Part shown: positions 261 to 15,385 of the stretch, piece by piece
Numbering within the stretch: the first letter of the stretch is position 1
Layout: every line of letters starts with the position of its first letter
Assembly (NCBI GenBank): GCA_023230825.1
Contig: JALNWO010000024.1
Span: 1-15,770, forward strand
Direction: 5' to 3'
Source of the DNA: Acholeplasmataceae bacterium
Lineage (GTDB): Bacteria; Bacillota_I; Bacilli_A; Acholeplasmatales; Acholeplasmataceae
Length of the DNA: 15,770 nt
Position numbers and translations under genes: made by a program
The notes under the pieces: model-generated
Seen by the model: only the letters and a program-made list of their open reading frames with translations
Databases searched by the model: none
What the model was told of the DNA's origin: nothing

Positions 261-1787
261 ATGATTCTGTTAAACGGTTCTAATTTAACACTGGAAATGT
301 TAATTGCGGTTGCACGTCATAACAAAAAAGTTGATATTGATGAGCAAAGTAAATTAGCGGTTCAAAAAGCCAGTGATTTTGTTAAAAATTTAATTAATGA
401 AGGGCGCCCAGTTTATGGTATTAATACCGGATTTGGTGATCTTTCTCAAGTTGAAATTAAAAACCATCGCTTAGAAGAACTGCAGGAAAATTTAATTAAA
501 AGTCATGCTTGCGGAATGGGTAATCCTTTAGATATTGAAATCGTTCGCGCCATGCTTGTTTTAAGGATCAATGCTTTGATTAAAGGACATAGTGGAACAC
601 GACTAGAAACCATTCAACTGATGCTTGATTTGTTAAACGCAAAGATTACGCCTGTGGTCTTTGAACAAGGTAGTTTAGGAGCAAGTGGAGATTTAGCACT
701 TTTATCACATATGAGTTTACCTTTACTTGGTTTAGGTGAAGTTTTTTATGAAGGCGAAAGGTGTCAAGCAGACATTGCCTTAAAAAAAGCCAATTTAAAA
801 CCTTTGAGTCATTTAGCACCGAAAGAAGGACTCAGTTTAATTAATGGTACACAAGCGATGTCCGCTATAGGGGCTTTCGTTTTATACGATGCATTTCGTC
901 TCATGAAATATGCCAATCTTTCATTGTCGATGACAATGGAGGCTCTTGAAGGTGTTATCGATGCGTTTGCAGAACAAATCCAAACGGTAAGAGGTCATAT
1001 TGGTCAGTTAGAAACGGCTGTTCAAGTTAAAAATTATTTAAAAAACAGTTCAAACATTACGAAACAAGGTGAAAAACGCGTTCAAGATGCCTATTCAATT
1101 CGCTGTGCGCCTCAAGTGCATGGCGCTTCGCTCGATGCTTTTTATTATGTTCACCAAGTCTTAGATACAGAAATGAATGCGGTAACAGATAATCCAATTT
1201 TATTTGTTGATGAACATCAAGCCATTAGTGCTGGTAATTTTCATGGTCAACCCCTCGCATTGGCTTTTGATTATTTATCTTTAGCGATTGCAGAGCTTGC
1301 AAATATAAGCGAGAGACGGATTGAACGGTTAGTAAATCCTAAATTAAATCAAGGACTACCACCTTTCTTAAGTGAAGACTCTGGAGTAAACTCAGGATTT
1401 ATGATTGTTCAATATACAGCTGCATCGATCGTTAGTGAAAACAAAGTTTTAGCTCATCCTGCTTCAGTAGATTCAATTCCATCATCAGCAAATCAAGAAG
1501 ATCATGTGTCTATGGGAGCATACGCCGTTCGTAAAGCAAAACAAATTTTAGATAACGTTTGGAAAGTGATTGCTTTAGAAATCTTTACTGCTTATCAGGC
1601 ACTCCATTTTCGGGGTAAAGATCAATTAGGCGAAAAAACAAAACAACTCTTTGCCTTATTAGAAACGGACATTCCTTTTATCGCACAAGATGAAATAATG
1701 TCACCCTATATGCAAAAGATAGAAGAATTCTTAAAAACAGATGCTTTTTATCAATCATTATTTAAAGGAGATGAAGTTGATGTATGA
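261..1787 (+). CDS. hutH: Histidine ammonia-lyase
   Basis: Cytoplasmic enzyme that removes ammonia from L-histidine to give trans-urocanate, the first step of histidine degradation. The protein has 508 residues, the usual size. The Ala-Ser-Gly triad that cyclises into the MIO electrophile is at 141-143 within GSLGASGDLALL. The catalytic tyrosine (Tyr53 in Pseudomonas) is Tyr52 in YGINTGFG, and the conserved Asn195 of NGTQAM and the Tyr278/Arg281 pair in YSIRCAPQVHGA are present. The ATG follows AGGAG by 4 bases. It is the first gene of a five-gene operon and overlaps hutU by 8 bases, implying translational coupling. No sign of damage; very secure. Confidence 0.98.
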   Translation: MILLNGSNLTLEMLIAVARHNKKVDIDEQSKLAVQKASDFVKNLINEGRPVYGINTGFGDLSQVEIKNHRLEELQENLIKSHACGMGNPLDIEIVRAMLVLRINALIKGHSGTRLETIQLMLDLLNAKITPVVFEQGSLGASGDLALLSHMSLPLLGLGEVFYEGERCQADIALKKANLKPLSHLAPKEGLSLINGTQAMSAIGAFVLYDAFRLMKYANLSLSMTMEALEGVIDAFAEQIQTVRGHIGQLETAVQVKNYLKNSSNITKQGEKRVQDAYSIRCAPQVHGASLDAFYYVHQVLDTEMNAVTDNPILFVDEHQAISAGNFHGQPLALAFDYLSLAIAELANISERRIERLVNPKLNQGLPPFLSEDSGVNSGFMIVQYTAASIVSENKVLAHPASVDSIPSSANQEDHVSMGAYAVRKAKQILDNVWKVIALEIFTAYQALHFRGKDQLGEKTKQLFALLETDIPFIAQDEIMSPYMQKIEEFLKTDAFYQSLFKGDEVDV

Positions 1788-3786
1788 ATTAACCCTAGCT
1801 GATATTTTTTCGACCCTACCTGAATACCCAACGTTTGATCCAAAAATTCGTCGAGCACCGATGCGTGAACTCAACTTATCTGAAAAAGAAATTGAACTTG
1901 CTTTAAAAAATGCGCTGCGTTATGTTCCTGAAGTTTGGCATGAAACCTTAGCGCCTGAGTTTTTAGATGAACTTTTAACTCATGGACGTATTTATGGTTA
2001 TCGTTTCCGTCCTCACGGCGAAATCAAAGGCATGCCAATCGATGCTTATCCAGGAAAAACATTAGAAGGAAAAGCATTTCAAGTAATGATGGATAATAAC
2101 CTAGACTTTGACGTTGCTTTATATCCCTATGAGCTTGTTACTTATGGGGAAACGGGTCAAGTATGCCAAAATTGGATGCAGTATCAACTTATTAAAAAAT
2201 ATTTAGAAGTGATGACGGATTCCCAAACACTGTCCATTTTATCAGGTCATCCCATGGGTTTATACACTTCCCACCCTGCCGCACCTAGAGTCATTATCAC
2301 CAATGGTTTAATGGTTGGATTATACGATAATTTAACTGATTTTAACCGCGCTCAAGCTCTTGGGGTTGCGAACTACGGGCAGATGACTGCGGGTGGTTTA
2401 ATGTATATTGGACCTCAAGGCATTGTTCACGGCACATATTCAACGTTATTAAATGCAGGAAGACTTAAACTCGGAATTCCCACAGAAGGAAATTTAGCAG
2501 GTAAACTCTTTGTTTCATCCGGTTTGGGTGGTATGAGTGGCGCGCAAGGAAAAGCAGTCGAAATTGCTGGTGGTGTAGGAATCATTGCTGAAGTTGATGC
2601 ATCAAGAATCGAAACACGTTACCAACAAAAATGGGTTAGCCAAGTCGTTAAAACACCAAAAGAGGCATATGAAGTTGCTCAAATTTATTTAGATAAGGGT
2701 GAATCGATTGCGATTGCTTATTTAGGTAATATCGTTGACTTACTTGCATATGCTGTTGATCATCATATTCACATTGATTTATTAAGCGATCAAACAAGTT
2801 GTCATGCTGTTTATGATGGAGGCTATTGCCCCACAGGAATGACATTTGATGAAAGAACTGAATTATTAAAAAATGATAAATCCCTTTTTGAGAAAAAAGT
2901 CGATGAAACACTTCTACAACATTATCATGCCATTAAGGCGCTCGTTAGCCAAGGAACATATTTCTTTGATTATGGTAATAGTTTCCTTAAAGCGCTTTAT
3001 GATGCGGGAATTAAAGAAGTTTGTAAAAACAAACAAAACGATTTAGATGGATTTATTTATCCCTCTTATGTAGAAGATTTGATGGGACCCCTCCTCTTTG
3101 ACTATGGATATGGACCTTTCCGTTGGGTTTGTTTATCTGGTAAAGAAAGTGATTTAGATTTAACTGACCAAACGGCATTATCCTTAATTGATCCAACAAG
3201 AAGATTCCAAGATAAAGATAATTACGAATGGTTAAAAAATGCAAAAGAGAATGCTTTAGTCGTAGGAACACAAGCGAGAATCCTTTATCAAGATCAAATT
3301 GGTCGCCTAAAAATAGCTTTAAAATTTAATGAGCTTGTTCGTAATAAATTAACTGGTCCGATTATGTTAGGAAGAGACCATCACGATACCGGTGGAACCG
3401 ATAGTCCCTTTAGAGAAACAGCGAATATCAAAGACGGTTCAAACATTATGGCTGAAATGGCAACTCAAGTTGCCATTGGCAACGCTCTTAGAGGCATGAG
3501 CCTTGTGGCCCTCCATAATGGTGGTGGCGTCGGGATTGGTAAATCAATTAATGGTGGATACGGGATGGTTTTAGATGGCTCAGCTCGTGTCGATGACATT
3601 TTAAAACAAGCGATGACATACGATGTTATCCTAGGCGTTTCTAGACGTTCTTGGGCACTGAATCCTAACGCAATTGAAACCGCTAAACAATTTAATCAAG
3701 ATCAGCCAGAAGCTGGCATTACCATGCCCTTTGTCGCTGATGACGACTTCATTAATAAACTTGTGAAAGAGAGGTTCAACAAATGA
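1780..3786 (+). CDS. hutU: Urocanate hydratase (urocanase), long form
   Basis: NAD+-dependent hydration of urocanate to 4-imidazolone-5-propionate, second step of the pathway. I start it at ATG 1780, which lies 9 bases after AAAGGAG (1764-1770). The in-frame ATG at 1771 touches that site and the one at 1741 has none. This gives 668 residues, clearly longer than the roughly 555 of Bacillus or Pseudomonas HutU and close to vertebrate UROC1. The nucleotide-binding loop GLGGMSGAQ is at 248-256, and GRDHHDTGGTDSPFRET begins at residue 531, followed by HNGGGVGIG and NGGYGMVLDG. ARILYQDQ replaces the ARICWVG of short-type enzymes and resembles the animal form. Its TGA overlaps the ftcD ATG by 4 bases. 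Confidence 0.97.
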   Translation: MYELTLADIFSTLPEYPTFDPKIRRAPMRELNLSEKEIELALKNALRYVPEVWHETLAPEFLDELLTHGRIYGYRFRPHGEIKGMPIDAYPGKTLEGKAFQVMMDNNLDFDVALYPYELVTYGETGQVCQNWMQYQLIKKYLEVMTDSQTLSILSGHPMGLYTSHPAAPRVIITNGLMVGLYDNLTDFNRAQALGVANYGQMTAGGLMYIGPQGIVHGTYSTLLNAGRLKLGIPTEGNLAGKLFVSSGLGGMSGAQGKAVEIAGGVGIIAEVDASRIETRYQQKWVSQVVKTPKEAYEVAQIYLDKGESIAIAYLGNIVDLLAYAVDHHIHIDLLSDQTSCHAVYDGGYCPTGMTFDERTELLKNDKSLFEKKVDETLLQHYHAIKALVSQGTYFFDYGNSFLKALYDAGIKEVCKNKQNDLDGFIYPSYVEDLMGPLLFDYGYGPFRWVCLSGKESDLDLTDQTALSLIDPTRRFQDKDNYEWLKNAKENALVVGTQARILYQDQIGRLKIALKFNELVRNKLTGPIMLGRDHHDTGGTDSPFRETANIKDGSNIMAEMATQVAIGNALRGMSLVALHNGGGVGIGKSINGGYGMVLDGSARVDDILKQAMTYDVILGVSRRSWALNPNAIETAKQFNQDQPEAGITMPFVADDDFINKLVKERFNK

Positions 3787-4757
3787 AACAAATCGTCCAA
3801 TGTGTTCCTAATTTTTCCGAAGGGAAAGATTTAGAAAAAATTGAAAAAATAATTACTCCCTTAAAGAATCAACCCGGCTTTACTCTTATTAGTTACGAGC
3901 CCGATCAAGATTATCACAGAACTGTGGTGACATTAATCGGCGAACCAGAAGCAATGATTGAGCCTTTGGTACGTTTCTTCAAAGAAGCGCGTGATTTAAT
4001 TGATATGAATGTCCATCAAGGTGAACATGCCCGCATGGGTGCGGTTGATGTTGTCCCTTTTATACCTATTCAAAATATTAAAATGAGCGAATGTACTGCT
4101 TATGCTAAAAAACTTGCTGAAAAGGTAAGTTCAACGTTAGATTTACCGGTTTACTTATATGCAAATGCCGCAACTTCACCAGACAGAAAGTCATTACCAA
4201 ACATTCGTAAAGGTGAATTTGAAGGAATGAAAGAAAAAATTAAAACCGAACCCTGGTTACCAGATTATGGTAAAAATGAAATTCATCCAACGTTTGGGGT
4301 TGTCGCCATTGGCTCAAGACTCCCTTTATTAGCTTACAATATTGATTTACCAACGGATGATTTAACAATCACCGGTGATTATGCACGGGCAATTCGTCAA
4401 TCAGGTGGCGGATTTCAATTTGTTCAAGCAGGTCCTGTTTATTTAAACGAACGAGGTCACACGCAAGTAACAATGAATATTTTAAATTATCAAAAGAATC
4501 CAATCTACCGCATTTTTGAGACGGTTAAAATGGAAGCACTCAAGCATCAACTTCATGTTCAGTCATCAGAAATAGTTGGTTTAATACCAGAAAAAGCTTT
4601 AATTCAATCTTTGGATTACTATTTAGAGCGCGATCAAAAACCGAAGACTGAACTTTCCTTAAAGGAAATTGCTGAATTAAGTCGTGAATACTTAGGTTTA
4701 CGTGATTTTACCGAAGAAAAAATAATTGAATATTATATCACAGGTAGTGAATCATGA
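3783..4757 (+). CDS. ftcD: Glutamate formimidoyltransferase (single-domain)
   Basis: Transfers the formimino group of N-formimino-L-glutamate to tetrahydrofolate, releasing glutamate and 5-formimino-THF. The 324 residues correspond to the N-terminal transferase half of animal FTCD. VPNFSEG is at 8-14, and QGEHARMGAVDVVPFIP at 79-95 contains His82, at the same position as the catalytic histidine of the mammalian enzyme. The cyclodeaminase half is absent here and encoded separately by the downstream fchA. The ATG overlaps the hutU stop (ATGA), with AGAGG just upstream; its own TGA overlaps hutI in the same way. Its presence means histidine is degraded by the folate route rather than by HutG formiminoglutamase or the HutF route. 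Confidence 0.96.
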   Translation: MKQIVQCVPNFSEGKDLEKIEKIITPLKNQPGFTLISYEPDQDYHRTVVTLIGEPEAMIEPLVRFFKEARDLIDMNVHQGEHARMGAVDVVPFIPIQNIKMSECTAYAKKLAEKVSSTLDLPVYLYANAATSPDRKSLPNIRKGEFEGMKEKIKTEPWLPDYGKNEIHPTFGVVAIGSRLPLLAYNIDLPTDDLTITGDYARAIRQSGGGFQFVQAGPVYLNERGHTQVTMNILNYQKNPIYRIFETVKMEALKHQLHVQSSEIVGLIPEKALIQSLDYYLERDQKPKTELSLKEIAELSREYLGLRDFTEEKIIEYYITGSES

Positions 4758-5989
4758 TTGCCGATTTCATTGTTTATAATATTAAATCACTTTATCACTC
4801 AAGAGAAATACCACCGGTAAAAGGTAATAAAATGAAAATGATTGAAACCTTGGAACAGCCTTTTATTGCTATTAAAGATGGTAAAGTCTTACACGTTGGA
4901 GTTGCAGATTATAGCGCTTTAGTGGGCGATAAAACACTTCTTTTTGATGCCAAACAAAAAGTGGTTGTTCCTGGTTTTATTGACTCACATTCTCATTTGG
5001 TCCATGCAGGTTCACGTGAAAATGAATTTGAGCAATTACGTCAAGGTGTACCCTACTTAGACATTTTACAGGCTGGTGGAGGTATTTTAGGAACAGTTGA
5101 TAAAACTAGAAAAGCGAGTTTTGATGAGTTATATGCCCAAGCTAAAAAATCACTTGATGTCATGTTATCATACGGTGTCACAACTTTAGAAGCAAAAAGT
5201 GGCTATGGTTTAAATTATGAAAATGAAGTTAAGCAACTAGAAGTAATGAAAAAACTGAATGATAATCATCCAGTTCATCTTGTTCCTACATACATGGCTG
5301 CTCATGCTGTTCCAAAAGAGTTTTTAAATAATAAACGGGGCTATATCGATGCCATGTTAGCTGATTTAGAAAAAATTAGAGCAACCAACCTAACTGAATT
5401 CGTCGATGTATTTTGTGAAACAGGTGTTTTTGATTTAAATGAAACAAGAGAAATACTTGAAGCAGCAAAAGCACTCGGTTTTAAAGTGAAATTGCATGCA
5501 GATGAAATTGATCCTTTAGGTGGTGCTGGTTTAGGTGCCGATCTTGGCGCAACCAGTGTTGACCATCTAATGGCTATTAAAGATGAAGACATCATCAAAC
5601 TTGCAAAAACTTCAACCATCTTAAATATCTTACCGGGTACATCTTTTTATTTAAATAAAACATATGCTCGCGCCCGCGATATGATTGAGGCTGGTTGTGC
5701 CCTATCTGTTTCAGGTGATTACAACCCCGGAAGTTGCCCCACGGAAAACTTCCAACTAATTATGCAATTGGCTGCTAATTATCTAAAGTTAACACCTGAA
5801 GAAATTTTGACTGCAGTCACACAAAATGCCGCCTTCCATTTAGGACTTGCTTCACAAAAAGGATCTTTAGAGCCAGGAAAAGATGCTGATTTCCTTTTAT
5901 TAGACATTCCCAATTTAGCTTATCTTTTTTATCATTTTGGAATTAACCATGTTTCTCACGTTTTTATAAACGGACAACAAATACAATAG
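4754..5989 (+). CDS. hutI: Imidazolonepropionase
   Basis: Metal-dependent amidohydrolase that opens 4-imidazolone-5-propionate to N-formimino-L-glutamate, the third step of the pathway and the one that makes the FtcD substrate. The 411 residues match the family. The HxH metal site is His79/His81 in FIDSHSHLVHAG. The further metal and catalytic residues are His248 in KLHADEIDPLGGAG, His271 in SVDHL and Asp322 in SGDYNPGSCPTE, aligned closely with Bacillus HutI. It starts inside the ftcD stop (ATGA overlap), with AGGTAG upstream as a modest ribosome site. Placement between ftcD and fchA is unusual order but functionally coherent. Ends in TAG. Confidence 0.97.
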   Translation: MIADFIVYNIKSLYHSREIPPVKGNKMKMIETLEQPFIAIKDGKVLHVGVADYSALVGDKTLLFDAKQKVVVPGFIDSHSHLVHAGSRENEFEQLRQGVPYLDILQAGGGILGTVDKTRKASFDELYAQAKKSLDVMLSYGVTTLEAKSGYGLNYENEVKQLEVMKKLNDNHPVHLVPTYMAAHAVPKEFLNNKRGYIDAMLADLEKIRATNLTEFVDVFCETGVFDLNETREILEAAKALGFKVKLHADEIDPLGGAGLGADLGATSVDHLMAIKDEDIIKLAKTSTILNILPGTSFYLNKTYARARDMIEAGCALSVSGDYNPGSCPTENFQLIMQLAANYLKLTPEEILTAVTQNAAFHLGLASQKGSLEPGKDADFLLLDIPNLAYLFYHFGINHVSHVFINGQQIQ

Positions 5990-6001
5990 CTGGAGGCTTA
6001 T

Positions 6002-6631
6002 ATGAAACTGATTGATTTAACTGTAAAACATTTTTTAGATGAAGTTGATTCTTCATCACCAGCACCAGGTGGTGGTTCGTCATCTGCATTGATTAGTGCT
6101 TTGGGAATTTCTTTAGCCAGAATGGTCGGTCATTTAACGGTTACGAAAAAGAAATTTCTTAATTTAGAACCTGAAATTCAAACACAATTTAATGAAACAT
6201 TAAATGCCCTTGAACAATTAAAAATCCAATTGACGCAATTAATTGATTTAGATACGGATGCTTACAACAAAATTGTTACCGCATACCGTCTTCCAAAAAC
6301 GGATGAGTTGCGCAAACAAAAAATCGAAGACGCAACATTAGGTGCGATTGAAGTGCCTGAACAAATTGGTCTATTATCGTTAGAAGCATTAAAACACCTT
6401 TCTTTTGTTCTTGCATATGGTAACCAATCAGCAATTTCTGATATGGGTGTTTCTGCTTTAAGTATTGCTACAGGTGTTGAAGGAGCTGTTTTAAACGTTT
6501 TAATTAATTTGCCTGGTCTTTCTAACGAGACACTTATCGAGCAATTTAAGGCAACCACACAAACCCTTTTAAAAGAAGCGCATGCCCTTAGAGAAAACAT
6601 TTTAGCACTCGTCTATCAGGCGTTATCCTGA
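6002..6631 (+). CDS. fchA: Formiminotetrahydrofolate cyclodeaminase
   Basis: Converts 5-formimino-THF to 5,10-methenyl-THF plus ammonia, finishing the folate route of histidine breakdown and feeding a one-carbon unit to the folate pool. The 209 residues are the usual length of a stand-alone cyclodeaminase (the C-terminal half of animal FTCD). The family signature SSPAPGGGSSSAL is at 18-30, followed by a small-residue-rich helix, and the acidic stretch DLDTDAYN at 82-89 is typical. A good TGGAGG ribosome site precedes the ATG; the gap to hutI is 12 bases. It ends in TGA and is the last gene of the operon. Confidence 0.95.
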   Translation: MKLIDLTVKHFLDEVDSSSPAPGGGSSSALISALGISLARMVGHLTVTKKKFLNLEPEIQTQFNETLNALEQLKIQLTQLIDLDTDAYNKIVTAYRLPKTDELRKQKIEDATLGAIEVPEQIGLLSLEALKHLSFVLAYGNQSAISDMGVSALSIATGVEGAVLNVLINLPGLSNETLIEQFKATTQTLLKEAHALRENILALVYQALS

Positions 6632-7963: not shown

Positions 7964-8269
7964 ATGGAATTATTACATTTTATCTTACTAGGCGTTTTCG
8001 TCTTATCAACAATTGTTGGTTACTTTTTAATTAAAAACGTCCCTTCTTTATTACACACACCTTTGATGAGTGGGATGAATGCTTTATCTGGGATTACATT
8101 AATTGGAGCTTTAGTTGCATTTGCGATTAGTTATCGTGATATTGGCTGGCTTTCCTCAATCGCAGGGGGACTTGCTGTTGTTGTCGCAACCATTAATGTG
8201 GTTGGTGGCTTTGGCGTCACACACCGGATGTTAAATATGTTCAGAAAGAAGGATGAGAAACATGACTAA
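7964..8269 (+). CDS. pntAB: NAD(P) transhydrogenase, membrane alpha-2 subunit
   Basis: Small integral membrane subunit (101 residues) that corresponds to the C-terminal membrane part of E. coli PntA and forms the proton channel with PntB. Three hydrophobic helices are visible, about 5-23, 43-58 and 64-82. HTPLMSGMNALSG at 31-43 is the conserved motif, with His31 matching the alpha-subunit channel histidine, and NVVGGFGVTHRMLNMF near the end matches E. coli NVVGGF-VT-RML-MF. The ribosome site TAAGGAGGA overlaps the pntAA stop codon. It overlaps pntB by 8 bases. Confidence 0.93.
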   Translation: MELLHFILLGVFVLSTIVGYFLIKNVPSLLHTPLMSGMNALSGITLIGALVAFAISYRDIGWLSSIAGGLAVVVATINVVGGFGVTHRMLNMFRKKDEKHD

Positions 8270-9680
8270 ATTAATGTTGCTGTCTATTTCTGACAATTTA
8301 TATTATGTAATTGCTGGCGTATTATCACTTGCGGTTTTATTTGGAATTCACTTAATGAGTCAAGTTAAAACGGCTAAAACAGGTAATATTTTAAGTGCAG
8401 TCGCTCTTTTAGCCGGTGTTGTCGTTACTTTAATTAGATATGATATTTTACCGATTTGGGTTTTATATGTCGGTGTAGCGATTGGTGCTGCCATTGGCTT
8501 ATGGATTAGTATTAAAGTTAAAATTATTGAAATGCCACAGCTTATTGCTTTACTCAATGGTTTAGGTGGCTTAGCATCTTTCATCGTTGGTGGTTATGCC
8601 CTCCTTGGCATCGGTTCAGATCAACAAGTGTTTAGCTTACTTGTCGCGATGTTAGCTGTTATTATTGGTGCCCTAACCTTCTCAGGAAGTATGGTTGCTG
8701 CAGGGAAACTCCATCGTGTCATTACCCAAAAACCAATTGTCATTAAATTCCATCAATCTGTGACGAGAATTTTAATTGCTTTATTGGCCATTGGTTTCAT
8801 TTATCCTGCTTTAACAACAGCAGGATTAACTGTTGTTTTAGTGATTACAATTGTAGTTGCCTTCCTTTTTGGGATTCTCTTTACCATTCGTATTGGTGGT
8901 GCAGATATGCCCATTGCGATTTCATTACTTAACAGTTTATCTGGTGTTGCAGCAGCAATCTCAGGTTTAGCCATTGGCGATCCTTTATTGGTTGCGGTGG
9001 GCGGCATTGTTGGAGCTTCAGGTTTACTCTTAACGCAAATTATGTGTAAAGCGATGAACCGCAAGCTTATTGAAATTCTTCTAGGAAAAACAACGGTTCA
9101 AAAAACTGAGAAAGTTAAGACTGAAAAACAAGTGGTTGAAGAAGAAGTTGAAGAAGATGAAGCCGACGAGAATACTCCCTATTTAGACGTTATTAAAAAT
9201 GCCAAAGATATCATTATTGTTCCAGGTTATGGAATGGCAGTTGCTCAAGCACAACATTTAGTAAAACAACTTGCCGACACGCTTAAAAAACAAGGTGCCA
9301 CTGTGCGTTTTGCCATTCACCCTGTAGCAGGCAGAATGCCAGGCCATATGAATGTCTTGTTAGCTGAGGCTGACGTTGATTACGATGATCTCTATGAAAT
9401 GGATGATTTAAACGATGAGTTTAAGAATATTGACTTGGCAATTGTTATTGGTGCCAATGACGTTGTTAATTCAGCCGCGAGAAATCAAGAAGATACACCA
9501 ATCTACGGAATGCCTATTTTAAATGTTGATGAAGCAAAAGAAGTCTTTATCTTCAATTACGATTTAAACCCTGGCTACTCAGGTGTCGATAACCCGCTTT
9601 ATAAACGGAAAAAAGGCGTCCACATGTTTTTAGGAAACGCTTTGGAAACTTTACAAAAATTAGCTGATGAAATGAAATAG
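8262..9680 (+). CDS. pntB: NAD(P) transhydrogenase, beta subunit
   Basis: Membrane domain II plus soluble NADP(H)-binding domain III of transhydrogenase, coupling proton entry to NADPH formation. I start at ATG 8262, 9 bases after AAGGA; the ATG at 8253 abuts that site. The protein has 472 residues. About eight to nine membrane helices fill residues 10-262. An acidic linker (EEEVEEDEADE, 293-303) leads to the NADP fold GYGMAVAQAQ at 322-331, then HPVAGRMPGHMNVLLAEA, VIGANDVVN and GYSGVDNPL. At the position of the E. coli channel residue His91 the sequence reads ALLNGLGGL, so an Asn (Asn99) stands there. Last gene of the operon, ended by a strong terminator. Confidence 0.95.
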   Translation: MTKLMLLSISDNLYYVIAGVLSLAVLFGIHLMSQVKTAKTGNILSAVALLAGVVVTLIRYDILPIWVLYVGVAIGAAIGLWISIKVKIIEMPQLIALLNGLGGLASFIVGGYALLGIGSDQQVFSLLVAMLAVIIGALTFSGSMVAAGKLHRVITQKPIVIKFHQSVTRILIALLAIGFIYPALTTAGLTVVLVITIVVAFLFGILFTIRIGGADMPIAISLLNSLSGVAAAISGLAIGDPLLVAVGGIVGASGLLLTQIMCKAMNRKLIEILLGKTTVQKTEKVKTEKQVVEEEVEEDEADENTPYLDVIKNAKDIIIVPGYGMAVAQAQHLVKQLADTLKKQGATVRFAIHPVAGRMPGHMNVLLAEADVDYDDLYEMDDLNDEFKNIDLAIVIGANDVVNSAARNQEDTPIYGMPILNVDEAKEVFIFNYDLNPGYSGVDNPLYKRKKGVHMFLGNALETLQKLADEMK

Positions 9681-9707
9681 AGGATTGGTTTCAATCCTCT
9701 TTTTTTT
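9680..9707 (+). terminator. Strong intrinsic terminator of the pnt operon
   Basis: GAGGATTG (9680-9687), loop GTTT, CAATCCTC (9692-9699), then eight Ts (9700-9707): a perfect 8-bp stem with a full U-tract, starting on the last base of the pntB stop codon. Confidence 0.93.
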
Positions 9708-9711
9708 CGAT

Positions 9712-9737
9712 AAAAAAACCACTCGTTGAGTGGTTTT
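9712..9737 (-). terminator. Intrinsic terminator of dps (possibly bidirectional)
   Basis: AAAACCACTC (9715-9724), loop GTT, GAGTGGTTTT (9728-9737) form a perfect 10-bp stem. On the minus strand it is followed by Us (complement of A9718-A9712), placing it right after the dps stop. On the plus strand the trailing TTTTGTTTT could also back up the pnt terminator. Confidence 0.88.
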
Positions 9738-9750
9738 GTTTTAATTCTTG

Positions 9751-10185
9751 TTATTTAAGGGTTGCTGATAACATCCAAATGTGTTTCTCAAAACTAGCAA
9801 GAGTTGTAATTAAAAGATCAACAGTCACCTCATCACCTAAATCTTGAGCAATGACCAATGCTTCTTTTAATTCGATTGCCATAATTTCAATGTCTTTAAG
9901 AACATGACCAACCATGACATCAGCATCTTCAACACCGGCAGCTTCTGCTAGTGAGGTTACTTCTAAATATGCTTTTTGAGTTGAAAGTGGTTTGCCACCA
10001 ATCATTAACAATCTTTCTGCAAACTCATCATAGAGTTCGTTAATTTCATCGTATAACTCTTCAAATTTTTCATGAAGGCGATAAAAGTGTGGGCCTTCCA
10101 CATACCAATGATAATGATGCAATTTCGTAAAGAAAATGCTTAAATTAGCAACTTGCTTGTTTAAAACAGCATATAGTTTTTCCAT
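9751..10185 (-). CDS. dps: Dps-family mini-ferritin (DNA-binding / iron-storage stress protein)
   Basis: Twelve-subunit cage protein that oxidises Fe2+ with hydrogen peroxide and stores the iron, limiting Fenton damage. I start at ATG 10185, preceded by GGAAAGGAAG; the longer frame up to 10251 covers the promoter and ribosome site. The 144 residues are a short Dps without a basic N-terminal tail, so DNA binding is doubtful. The inter-subunit ferroxidase site is visible: His26 in HYHWYVEGPHF, His38 in LHEKFEELY, Asp53 and Glu57 in DEFAERLLMIGGKP. Glu42 stands where Listeria Dps has Asp, a mild change. It lies convergent to pntB and divergent from prfA, as a single-gene unit with its own promoter and terminator. 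Confidence 0.95.
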   Translation of the reverse strand: MEKLYAVLNKQVANLSIFFTKLHHYHWYVEGPHFYRLHEKFEELYDEINELYDEFAERLLMIGGKPLSTQKAYLEVTSLAEAAGVEDADVMVGHVLKDIEIMAIELKEALVIAQDLGDEVTVDLLITTLASFEKHIWMLSATLK

Positions 10186-10214
10186 TTTTATAAATCTTCC
10201 TTTCCTTTTATTTG

Positions 10215-10229
10215 GTACCTTAATTATAA
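10215..10229 (-). promoter_or_regulatory. Possible PerR-like half-perfect box over the dps -10
   Basis: On the minus strand TTATAATTAAGGTAC compares with the PerR consensus TTATAATNATTATAA. The left half is perfect and the right half poor. Dps/MrgA is a classic PerR target, which is why I list it, but half of the match is simply the -10 box itself. Confidence 0.2.
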
Positions 10230-10251
10230 CACTATTTAGAAAAATATACAA
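10223..10251 (-). promoter_or_regulatory. Promoter of dps
   Basis: On the minus strand TTGTAT (10251-10246), a 17-base spacer and TATAAT (10228-10223) preceded by TGT make an extended -10 promoter. Transcription would start near 10216, giving a leader of about 30 nt. Confidence 0.7.
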
Positions 10252-10274
10252 ATTTAAAGCATTGTCTAATACGA

Positions 10275-10303
10275 TGGAAATATTATTTTTTTTATGGTAA
10301 TAT
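10275..10303 (+). promoter_or_regulatory. Putative promoter of prfA
   Basis: TGG-TAATAT at 10295-10303 reads as an extended -10 and TGGAAA at 10275-10280 as a -35 with a 17-base spacer (four of six consensus bases). The predicted transcript begins near 10310 and carries a leader of about 110 nt. Confidence 0.45.
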
Positions 10304-10315
10304 ATCAGTAAGGAA

Positions 10316-10333
10316 CGTTAGCAATTTGCAACG
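10316..10333 (+). promoter_or_regulatory. Small hairpin at the 5' end of the prfA leader
   Basis: CGTT-A-GCA, loop ATT, TGC-AACG can form a 7-bp stem with one bulged A, at the very start of the predicted transcript. It may simply stabilise the 5' end of the mRNA; no specific role is seen. Confidence 0.3.
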
Positions 10334-10365
10334 AATTTCTAAAATAGACCAATAGAATCTGACCG

Positions 10366-10418
10366 AAAGGAGAAAGATTTAAAGGGGCAACATTTCCTTT
10401 AAGTCTTTTCATATATTT
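10366..10418 (+). promoter_or_regulatory. prfA ribosome site split from its start codon by a 13-bp hairpin
   Basis: The only Shine-Dalgarno sequence before prfA is AAAGGAG at 10366-10372, about 46 bases from the ATG. The last bases before the ATG (TCTTTTCATATATTT) have none. Between them AAAGATTTAAAGG (10373-10385) pairs fully with CCTTTAAGTCTTT (10396-10408), 13 bp with one G-U pair and a 10-base loop. If folded, SD and ATG are joined by only the 10 bases 10409-10418, a normal spacing. In the prfA frame, TAA at 10380-10382 rules out an upstream start. A known parallel is T4 gene 25, where a hairpin brings SD and AUG together. Confidence 0.7.
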
Positions 10419-11483
10419 ATGTTTGACCGTTTAAAATTAATCGAAAAACAATACAAAGAAATTCAAAATAAACTCGCTCAAGGCGTTGTCGATGTAAAGG
10501 AAATCACTGAGCTATCAAAAGCTGCAGCTTCCTTTCAGGAAACCGTTGAGCTTTATCGCTTTTATCAAGAGAAAGAAACCGAACTCCATGATGTGAAAGC
10601 AATGATTGAAGACGAAACCGATGAAGATCTTATTCAATTTGGACAAAACGAAGTCCGTCTTTTAGAGCAAACATTAGCTGATACAGAAGAAAAACTGAAA
10701 GTTTTATTATTACCAAAAGATCCAAATGATGAGAAAAACGTTATCGTTGAAATTAAAGGGGCCGCAGGTGGCGATGAGGGCAATATTTTTGCTGGCGATT
10801 TATTTAGAATGTATTTGAAATATGCTGAATCAAAAAACTGGAAAATAGAAATTTTGAATGCGATGCCCGGCTCGATGGGCGGTTATACGACAATTGAATT
10901 TATGATTTCGGGGAAACTTGTGTACTCGATGTTAAAATATGAATCTGGAACTCACCGTGTTCAAAGAGTCCCAGAAACCGAATCTCAAGGACGTGTTCAC
11001 ACGTCCACTGCTACAGTTTTAGTTATGCCAGAAGCAGATGAGCTTGATTTAAACATTAGTTGGAACGATATTCGTTTTGACACCTTTAACTCTAGTGGAC
11101 CTGGTGGTCAATCCGTTAATACAACTAAATCTGCTGTTCGGTTAACACATTTACCAACAGGAATCAGTGTGAGTTGTCAAGAAGGTAAGTCACAACACGA
11201 AAACAGAGATAAAGCATATCGTCTTTTAACAACACGAATTTATGATCAAATGCGTGCTGAACAAGAAGCAATTGAAGAAGAAAAACGCCATGCATTGGTT
11301 GGTCGTGGGGACAGAAGCGAGAAAATCAGGACTTATAACTATCCCCAAAACCGTGTTTCTGATCATCGTATCAACTTAACACTACAACGTTTAGATGCAA
11401 TTATGGATGGACGCTTAGATTTAGTTTTAGAACCACTTTTAAATGAATTTCAAAAACAACAATTAACAGAGGTTTCGGCTTGA
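10419..11483 (+). CDS. prfA: Peptide chain release factor 1
   Basis: Recognises UAA and UAG in the ribosomal A site and triggers peptide release. The 354 residues are typical. The codon-reading tripeptide is Pro-Glu-Thr at 185-187 in RVPETESQGRVHTSTATV, of the RF1 type (PxT) rather than the SPF of RF2. The catalytic GGQ is at 229-231 in SSGPGGQSVNTTKSAV. The N-terminus MFDRLKLIEKQYKEI fits the family, so ATG 10419 is right despite its missing near ribosome site. The adjacent prmC encodes the enzyme that methylates the GGQ glutamine. The stop TGA overlaps the prmC start codon; RF2 must exist elsewhere to read it. Confidence 0.98.
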   Translation: MFDRLKLIEKQYKEIQNKLAQGVVDVKEITELSKAAASFQETVELYRFYQEKETELHDVKAMIEDETDEDLIQFGQNEVRLLEQTLADTEEKLKVLLLPKDPNDEKNVIVEIKGAAGGDEGNIFAGDLFRMYLKYAESKNWKIEILNAMPGSMGGYTTIEFMISGKLVYSMLKYESGTHRVQRVPETESQGRVHTSTATVLVMPEADELDLNISWNDIRFDTFNSSGPGGQSVNTTKSAVRLTHLPTGISVSCQEGKSQHENRDKAYRLLTTRIYDQMRAEQEAIEEEKRHALVGRGDRSEKIRTYNYPQNRVSDHRINLTLQRLDAIMDGRLDLVLEPLLNEFQKQQLTEVSA

Positions 11484-12337
11484 CTTACGAAGAACTTTTA
11501 AGAGATGGCCAACAAAAGGCTCGCAAACATCGTCTCGAGGAAGAAGCTGTTAAGTTTTTACTAATAGAACTTTCAGCTATGGAGCCCCATCTTTTTTATT
11601 TATCGTTAAAAAATTCTGTTCCAAAAACAATTCAAGAGCAGTTCGTGAAAGTTTTAGATCGATATCTTTTTCACCATGAGCCTGTTCAATATTTACTTGG
11701 TTATACTTACTTTTATAACCGTCGTTTTTTCGTGAACGAAGACGTTCTTATTCCCCGCCGGGAAACAGAACAATTAGTCGATATTTTGTTAAAAGAAATC
11801 AAACTTTTTTGGCCTAACGAAAAACCGTTATCCGTTCTCGATTTAGGAACAGGAAGTGGTTGTATTGGGATCACATTATCATTAGAAAACCCCTCATTAG
11901 AAGTTACCTTGGTCGATTTGTCTCATAAGGCCTTGGTGGTTGCAAAAAGGAACAGTCAAAAGTTTAATGCCTCGGTTCATTTAGTGCAAAGCGATTGGTT
12001 CGAAAAGATTCATGAAACGTATGATGTTATAGTAGCAAACCCACCCTATATACGTGACGAAGAGCCCCTAGATAACATTGTGGATAAAGAGCCAAAAAGC
12101 GCATTATATGGCGGCATTTACGGATTAGATTCTTATGAAGCTATTTTAAAATCTGTGCATCAACATATACAGAAAAAAAGCATTATTTTCTTTGAGCATG
12201 GAGCTGAACAAAAACAAGCATTAAACGAATTGATTTATCAATTTTTGCCAAACGCGCAAATTACACATTTGAAAGATTATCAAAATAAAGATCGTTTTAC
12301 GATGATAAAAATAGGAGTTGATTTACATGATGTATAA
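11480..12337 (+). CDS. prmC: Release factor glutamine N5-methyltransferase
   Basis: SAM-dependent enzyme that methylates the glutamine of the GGQ motif in RF1 and RF2. It starts with TTG at 11480, overlapping the prfA stop (TTGA), with AGAGG 7 bases upstream. The 285 residues include an N-terminal helical domain ending in EPVQYLLGYTYFYNRRF, the IPRRET element at 91-96, SAM motif I DLGTGSGCIG at 121-130, the acidic motif LVDLS at 144-148, and the substrate-binding NPPY at 187-190 that holds the glutamine. Coupling with prfA is the standard bacterial arrangement. It overlaps tsaC by 11 bases. Confidence 0.97.
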   Translation: MTYEELLRDGQQKARKHRLEEEAVKFLLIELSAMEPHLFYLSLKNSVPKTIQEQFVKVLDRYLFHHEPVQYLLGYTYFYNRRFFVNEDVLIPRRETEQLVDILLKEIKLFWPNEKPLSVLDLGTGSGCIGITLSLENPSLEVTLVDLSHKALVVAKRNSQKFNASVHLVQSDWFEKIHETYDVIVANPPYIRDEEPLDNIVDKEPKSALYGGIYGLDSYEAILKSVHQHIQKKSIIFFEHGAEQKQALNELIYQFLPNAQITHLKDYQNKDRFTMIKIGVDLHDV

Positions 12338-12884
12338 AGGCGATATTATTATTATTCCCACTGACACTGTTTTTGGTTTTGCGAGCCTCCTTCATGATCA
12401 AGAAGGGCTAAAAAAAATCAACCATCTCAAAGGTATTAAAAAACCACAACCTATCCCCATTTTAATTTCTAATGTCAATCAACTAAAAGAGATTGCTGTA
12501 ATTAACCGAAAAAGTGAATTATTGATGCGGAAATATTGGCCTGGCCATTTAACGATTATTTTCAAAACCACTCCTGAGTTTTTTGAAAAAACTAAAGAAG
12601 AAACGGTTGCAATTCGGATGCCTAAGCATCCAATCCCTTTAAAATTAATCGATATGTATGGGCCCTTAAGAGTCACGTCTTTAACTTTGCCTGAAGAAAA
12701 ACCGATCAATGAATTTAAGGCCATTGAAAAACAGTTTAAAAAACATGTGAAAGAAATTTATCCCCAAGGACAGATTCCTAAAAGCGATCAATCATCAACG
12801 ATTGTTGATGTCACTAAAAGAGGACTTAAAATTGTTCGACCTGGTGCTATTTCAGAAGCTGAGTTACTCGAGACAATTAAATAA
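12327..12884 (+). CDS. tsaC: TsaC/YrdC/Sua5-family L-threonylcarbamoyladenylate synthase, divergent
   Basis: Makes threonylcarbamoyl-AMP from threonine, bicarbonate and ATP for the t6A modification of tRNAs reading ANN codons. I start at ATG 12327, 9 bases after AGGAG; ATG 12330 is also possible, and TTG 12318 abuts the site. The 185 residues include PTDTVFG (11-17), WPGHLT (71-76), VAIRMPKHP and STIVD...IVRPGAI (157-175), all family landmarks. Two signature elements differ. The KxR motif is KGIKKPQP, with no Arg at the third place, and the SxN of TSANLSG reads TSLTLPEE (117-124). Only the single catalytic YrdC domain is present. Position after prmC matches Bacillus ywlC. Confidence 0.87.
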   Translation: MMYKGDIIIIPTDTVFGFASLLHDQEGLKKINHLKGIKKPQPIPILISNVNQLKEIAVINRKSELLMRKYWPGHLTIIFKTTPEFFEKTKEETVAIRMPKHPIPLKLIDMYGPLRVTSLTLPEEKPINEFKAIEKQFKKHVKEIYPQGQIPKSDQSSTIVDVTKRGLKIVRPGAISEAELLETIK

Positions 12885-14724: not shown

Positions 14725-15385
14725 AATCGTTAATCGCCTAACCAATCTCCCTGTCTATTTTTTGACGTCACTTGGGATTATGGTTTTTATTATGATTATT
14801 AGTATTTGGTTTGGAGCGAGAATTTCTAAGTTAGATGTCGAGGCGAAACCAAATAAATTGTGGACGGTTGTGATTCAATTTGTTGCTTTTTTCAACACGT
14901 TTACCAAATCTTATTTTGGGAAACATTGGCGCAAACTTACACCACTTGTTTTTGCGATGACATTATATGTTGCTCTTGCCAATATGAGTGGAATGTTTTT
15001 TAACTTAACAGCACCCACACGGTTTACCTCTATTACGTTTAGCTTATCAATTCTTTCCTTCTTAATTATTCAAACGGCAGGTTTTATGAGTCAAAGTTGG
15101 CGCCATCTAACCGGTGTTTTCCAACCATTGTGGCCGTTATTCCCCCTTAATATTATCGGTGATTTTACCCCTATTTTCTCGATGGCACTGCGTTTATTCG
15201 GTAATATTGTGAGTGGATCGATTATTTTGTTTTTAGTTTATGAACTTGGCGGTTGGGTTTCAGTTGTTATTACACCTGCACTCCACGTTGTGTTCGATAT
15301 TGGGTTTGGTTTTATCCAAACACTCGTTTTAATTTTACTTACGGTTATTTTCGCTTCAAACAAAATGGATGAAGCTGATTTATAA
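14711..15385 (+). CDS. atpB: ATP synthase F0 subunit a
   Basis: Membrane stator subunit carrying the ion half-channels against the c-ring. I start at ATG 14711, preceded by GGAGGAAAAT; the TTG at 14693 precedes that site. The 224 residues are rather short but complete. The essential arginine is Arg161 in SMALRLFGNIVSGS (E. coli Arg210), followed by Asn165 and, in the last helix, Gln203 of FGFIQTLVLILLTVIF. PLFPLNIIGDFTPIFS at 142-157 is a family hallmark. Five to six membrane helices are visible. A 34-base gap with a strong ribosome site separates it from atpE. Confidence 0.96.
   Translation: MTWNEIVNRLTNLPVYFLTSLGIMVFIMIISIWFGARISKLDVEAKPNKLWTVVIQFVAFFNTFTKSYFGKHWRKLTPLVFAMTLYVALANMSGMFFNLTAPTRFTSITFSLSILSFLIIQTAGFMSQSWRHLTGVFQPLWPLFPLNIIGDFTPIFSMALRLFGNIVSGSIILFLVYELGGWVSVVITPALHVVFDIGFGFIQTLVLILLTVIFASNKMDEADL

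Follow-up and report, generated by a model that had tools for sequence, protein, structure and literature searches.

A candidate split ribosome-binding site, bridged by a predicted hairpin, before prfA of an Acholeplasmataceae bacterium

The prfA start and its distant Shine-Dalgarno sequence

How could a ribosome reach the start codon of a gene that has no Shine-Dalgarno (SD) sequence near its start, but a perfect one far upstream? The question arises at prfA in the window analysed here, a whole stretch of 15,770 nt from an Acholeplasmataceae bacterium (assembly GCA_023230825.1, contig JALNWO010000024.1, forward strand). A preliminary description of this DNA had reported both that the prfA ATG lacks a nearby SD and that AAAGGAG stands about 46 bases upstream of it. 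Both statements are borne out: no SD word of at least 4 nt lies at 2–15 nt before the prfA ATG, and AAAGGAG is present as part of a longer match to the 16S tail, GAAAGGAG, which ends 46 nt before the ATG (Table 1).

The start codon itself is well fixed. The translation opens with MFDRLKLIEK, which a comparison with the N-termini of relatives identifies as the conserved prfA N-terminus, and because of this conservation an alternative start was rejected and ATG 10419 stands. The nearest protein found, the PrfA of Tenericutes bacterium MO-XQ, is 81% identical to that of the window, and the ten closest prfA loci found are titled Acholeplasmataceae, Acholeplasmatales, Phytoplasma or Tenericutes. 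Elsewhere in this Acholeplasma-like window (261–6631), histidine-utilisation genes adjoin transhydrogenase genes; from a reading of their ORFs, we take the former to be hutH, hutU, ftcD, hutI and an fchA-like gene.

Of the 18 genes of the window, prfA alone lacks an SD word of at least 4 nt near its start. Such a word is found at 2–15 nt in all 17 of the others and reaches at least 5 nt in 13 of them, the words of atpZ and atpI being merely AAAG. These counts refer to gene starts chosen from ORF translations by the N-termini usual in each family, with pntB counted from a start at 8262 that has an SD word (a possible start at 8274 has none).

Table 1. Features of the prfA locus, in window coordinates
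Feature	Coordinates	Strand	Basis
Predicted prfA promoter, extended −10 element TGGTAATAT	10295..10303	+	Conservation among relatives; window aligned with 24 of 43
Extra leader, net gain about 96 nt, borders unsure	10307..10413	+	Comparison with 68 relatives
Shine-Dalgarno sequence GAAAGGAG (AAAGGAG = 10366–10372)	10365..10372	+	8 nt complementary to 16S tail
Spacer hairpin, 5' arm	10373..10385	+	Minimum-energy stem 10372–10387
Spacer hairpin, 3' arm	10396..10408	+	Minimum-energy stem 10394–10409
Effective spacer from stem to ATG, 10 nt, A/U-rich	10409..10418	+	
prfA, peptide chain release factor 1, 354 aa	10419..11483	+	PCRF and RF-1 domains; N-termini of relatives

The distant SD is strong. 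With the 16S tail of a relative, G001, whose 16S-like 3' end was located by motif (...GGATCACCTCCTTTCTA), it would form an 8-bp duplex of −12.7 kcal/mol. It also has no other start codon to serve, as no AUG, GUG or UUG occurs between it and the prfA ATG; among the codons sought, only ATT and ATA triplets are present there. What does occupy the interval is a hairpin, and its sequence is as had been described: the 5' arm begins directly after the SD, the 13 base pairs are uninterrupted and include one G-U, and 10 nt remain before the ATG. The arms are themselves separated by 10 nt. In the minimum-energy fold the stem lengthens to 16 bp (Table 1), and the predicted energy of the hairpin runs from −14.0 kcal/mol (10373–10408) to −15.3 kcal/mol (10372–10409), leaving 10 (or 9) nt to the start. 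The 13 stem pairs have predicted probabilities of 0.75–1.0 in all four of the transcript lengths that were folded.

We propose, with a probability of roughly 55%, that translation of prfA starts at a split ribosome-binding site of the type described for phage T4 genes 25 and 38. The 16S tail of a 30S subunit would pair with the distant SD, the 13–16 bp stem would remain folded and so cut the 46-nt gap to 10 nt, and the prfA AUG would thereby be brought to the P site. The locus combines a strong SD that is too far from the start and the lack of any near it with a predicted stable stem that leaves a functional distance, which is what characterises a site of this kind. From the predicted folds we infer that the stem forms in cells, and the proposal further supposes that the ribosome accommodates it in its folded state and uses the distal SD. 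Several considerations count against the split site. The SD is partly covered in the predictions, by the closing G10372-U10409 pair and by a 2-bp CC(GAAA)GG mini-hairpin, and the AUG itself is under weak pairing. Inhibition by upstream hairpins has also been reported, and is described as strong for a hairpin at most 40 nt upstream of the start (Osterman et al. 2013, as cited in a passage of PMC4631060).

The main rival of the split site is SD-independent initiation, in which, once the ordinary SD had gone, the prfA AUG would be reached through the open, A/U-rich 10 nt before it, and the distal SD and hairpin would be by-products of an insertion. The low affinity of the immediate upstream region is in keeping with this, since the 20 nt before the AUG give only −1.6 kcal/mol with the anti-SD, as is the richness of the 10-nt spacer in A/U; SD-less starts in unstructured regions have also been reported (PMC3121790). 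We nevertheless consider SD-independent initiation unlikely. All 17 other window genes carry an SD word of at least 4 nt (even if only AAAG in the two cases above), 66 of 68 relatives retain one before prfA itself (see below), and SD-independent initiation would not explain why a perfect SD that serves no other start stands directly before an improbable stem.

A leader gained between promoter and gene

We compared the leader with those of 74 prfA loci, comprising 70 from 88 family genomes together with L008–L011. The start could be located in 68 of these (L093, L097, L098, L100, L101 and L103 were left out), two of which, L008 and L070, are the same in sequence. Also left out were 14 further prfA matches from the 88 family genomes and four genomes with only a weaker RF2-like match, as well as L001–L007, which duplicate whole-genome loci, and L012–L020, which belong to other groups.

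An SD word of at least 5 nt lies 3–14 nt before the prfA start in 66 of the 68 relatives, and the remaining two have TGGGGAT and GAGGGT at the SD position. In 43 of the 68, an extended −10 element, TGnTAnnAT, precedes the start by 15–23 nt; judging by sequence, the mRNAs of these loci would begin only shortly before the SD, which is often GGTGAT. The window has kept this promoter element, but at a distance of 115 nt from the prfA ATG, and we therefore conclude that about 96 nt were gained before prfA and that an SD of the GGTGAT type was lost. The split site would have originated in this way, by a gain between the conserved promoter and prfA that removed the ordinary SD, and the leader would then be an example of how a gene could survive insertional loss of its proximal SD. 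Gene order at the locus (promoter, divergent dps, prfA) is the same in the window and in G001, the only relative checked for this.

The view of the preliminary description that a hairpin joins the distant SD to the start is upheld in part. A split SD fits best, given a distal SD without another start, an effective spacing of 10 nt, the singular position of prfA among the window genes and the loss of the ordinary SD that its relatives have. Split SD-hairpin geometry with a stem of at least 10 bp was found in none of the 68 relatives, of which the nearest prfA is only 81% identical; L040 has an 8-bp stem in split geometry, with a 69-nt gap that spans its own promoter. As far as the sequences compared go, the hairpin-bridged arrangement of prfA is known from one sequence only. 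With no relative to share it, there are no paired changes to speak for selection on the structure, which counts against the split site.

Occurrence in a single sequence, with no convincing match elsewhere, also fits a fault of assembly or sequencing, or a recent insertion that has no function, in which case the leader would be chimeric or transient; its GC content of 0.34, against 0.20 directly upstream, points the same way. We regard such an origin as quite improbable, as promoter, divergent dps and prfA are ordered as in G001 and a random join would not be expected to yield a long clean stem that begins right after an SD.

Searches for the leader in other genomes returned few matches, and among the genomes searched no close relative with the long leader emerged. 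Across 160 genomes of the order, with up to five candidates scored per genome, only short and weak matches of 21–51 bases were found, in 12 genomes (E = 0.001–0.01). A search of 392 genomes of the phylum, run without a positive control, gave no match at E ≤ 1e-4, and viral contigs showed neither a match to one exact 23-base leader pattern nor a prfA relative. Short matches in the genomes of ten relatives (best E = 0.001, in G003) were treated as chance; the place of the G003 match is, by eye, apparently dense coding sequence of locus L021. Several candidate sources and identities were rejected. Plasmid records returned 16 weak matches (E = 0.6), each spanning at most 21% of the query. For a repeat or mobile element, the best exact word that the leader has in common with other parts of the window is 12 nt long (E = 0.078), and the best in common with 1.2 Mb of G001 is 16 nt long (E = 0.024), both of which were taken as chance. 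For a known riboswitch or leader RNA, the best Rfam match in the leader reaches 21.8 bits where the gathering score is 62, and no Rfam family comes close to its threshold.

Chance and terminator-like features

The geometry could in principle be accidental, and we assessed this by shuffling, in tests that were designed post hoc with the feature already seen. In sets of 3000 dinucleotide shuffles, a stem of at least 13 bp appeared twice for the 46-nt segment, 18 times for the 114-nt leader and 49 times for the region 10252–10418. The joint geometry, defined as an SD of at least 6 nt, an adjoining stem and 4–14 nt to the start, appeared in 12 of 5000 leader shuffles when the stem was required to have at least 9 bp, in one when it was required to have at least 11 bp, and in none at 13 bp or more. 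Against the split site, the folding energy of 10340–10450 is unremarkable (z = −1.81; 10 of 200 shuffles do as well).

We also scanned 1.2 Mb of G001, taking 2074 candidate ATG starts from 750 long ORFs and, as a control, 1822 internal ATGs. The geometry was present at 13 candidate starts vs 4 control ATGs for a stem of at least 8 bp, at 5 vs 3 for 9 bp and at 2 vs 1 for 10 bp; with a stem of at least 11 bp it was present at none of the 2074 candidate starts and none of the 1822 controls, so that the 13–16 bp stem of the window stands alone within the scanned sequence. One G001 start can be recorded in its own right. The reverse strand of locus L157 carries an ORF of some 460 aa that looks hydrophobic by eye and starts near position 15137 of the reverse complement. 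It has an AAAGGA that ends 46 nt before its ATG and a 10-bp stem that begins 3 nt after AAAGGA and leaves 10 nt. It is the sole one of the 2074 starts with both a stem of at least 10 bp and no near SD, which corresponds to the chance frequency.

The hairpin and the T-rich stretch after it might alternatively constitute an intrinsic terminator, acting as a transcription attenuator that limits read-through into prfA. The arms do look like the A-tract and U-tract of a terminator, a consensus scan calls the hairpin terminator-like (with 6 calls in 9000–12500 vs 2.2 ± 1.5 in shuffles), and the segment 10356–10380 could, by eye, compete for pairing with the 5' arm. Against this, the d score of d'Aubenton-Carafa ranges from −17 to −63 over eight choices of stem boundary, whereas the pntB terminator of the window reaches +21.9; the neighbouring hairpin at 9715–9737, however, also scores −29. 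The T run, moreover, is not continuous but contains C and A, and in the folds made the main stem prevails. A palindromic operator in the DNA, bound by a protein, was considered as well. An attenuator is therefore very improbable, and we return to the split site in considering whether the leader might regulate translation.

Regulation and comparison with known systems

The preliminary description had gone on to suggest that stability, temperature or a bound factor could tune RF1 levels through the hairpin. This part of it finds no support, the predicted mean stem probability being 0.98 at 4 °C and still 0.90 at 65 °C. Of the SD, only the last G sits in the stem, and what weakens with temperature in the predictions is the 2-bp mini-hairpin over the SD. 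The SD (10366–10371) could alternatively pair with UCCUUU of the 3' arm (10395–10400), a pairing that would hide it; when the fold is forced to sequester the SD in this way, its energy is −19.1 vs −25.9 kcal/mol, 6.8 kcal/mol worse. We accordingly rejected an RNA thermometer or switch, since the predicted stem persists across 4–65 °C and the SD-hiding fold is less stable by that amount, and consider the split site of prfA to be probably constitutive and not a switch.

Within the leader, the region 10326–10382 may encode a leader peptide ending at an RF1-specific stop. A leader that senses RF1 could be built on it, in which prfA would answer RF1 shortage through a 9-codon uORF running from UUG 10326 to UAG 10353. 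The TTG, the TAG, a TAA at 10380 and the prfA ATG share one frame (LQRISKIDQ-stop-NLTERRKI-stop-RGNISFKSFHIF-M, in frame with prfA), the distance from TTG to ATG is 93 nt, and an AAGGA (10310–10314) lies 11 nt before the UUG, where the SD of relatives lies. That upstream SD is weak, however (−5.1 kcal/mol), and the UUG falls within a small predicted hairpin; a shared frame has a chance of one in three, stops are common in A/T-rich DNA, and UAA is read by RF2 too. Passages of a survey of more than 12,000 genomes judge programmed frameshifting unlikely to regulate prfA, and leave leaders untreated (PMC12421855). Among the alternative folds computed, the main stem also has no competitor, and we give an RF1-sensing leader very little credence. 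Scarcely credible is a combined arrangement, in which the new leader behind the old promoter would be a hairpin-bridged SD and an RF1 sensor at once, with stalling at the UAG changing access to the split site; a ribosome stalled there would presumably, going by footprint size, have its 3' edge just short of the SD.

If the split site is real, a core translation gene of a small-genome bacterium depends on a hairpin-bridged SD, and start-site prediction that scans only 15–20 nt would overlook such sites. Our searches of the open-licence PMC literature turned up no case of a hairpin separating SD and AUG in a native chromosomal gene of a bacterium, and nothing on this leader in connection with prfA autoregulation or Acholeplasma transcript starts.

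Three known systems invite comparison. The programmed frameshift autoregulation of prfB (RF2) resembles the case proposed for prfA in that a release factor gene departs from standard translation. It involves an in-frame stop and a frameshift soon after the coding region begins, and is reported, in passages of the survey cited above, as not demonstrated for prfA (PMC12421855); at the prfA leader, regulation is not indicated. E. coli thrS is, like prfA, a bacterial housekeeping gene with a long leader hairpin, and the thrS hairpin is accommodated by the ribosome without being unfolded (passages of PMC3936740). In thrS the hairpin precedes an SD at the usual distance and parts this SD from a second single-stranded binding domain, whereas the predicted prfA hairpin lies between SD and AUG.

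Phage T4 supplies the best-known hairpin-bridged SD sites. RNA structure there shortens the distance between SD and AUG from 27 to 11 nt in gene 25 and from 22 to 5 nt in gene 38 (passages of PMC3014915), in agreement with the preliminary description, which had named gene 25 as a precedent for a hairpin that brings the two together. In these genes, as would be the case in prfA, a suboptimally distant SD is made functional by structure, with a predicted reduction at prfA from 46 to 10 nt. The gene 25 structure is present in close T-even phages and missing from more distant relatives of T4 (passages of PMC3014915), much as the prfA arrangement is absent from the relatives examined. The likeness is an analogy and does not suggest shared ancestry. 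Unlike genes 25 and 38, prfA is a bacterial chromosomal housekeeping gene with its own promoter and a stem of 13–16 bp, and its arrangement is known from sequence and prediction. The prfA leader is thus a probable lineage-specific counterpart, in a bacterial housekeeping gene, of the site described for T4 gene 25.
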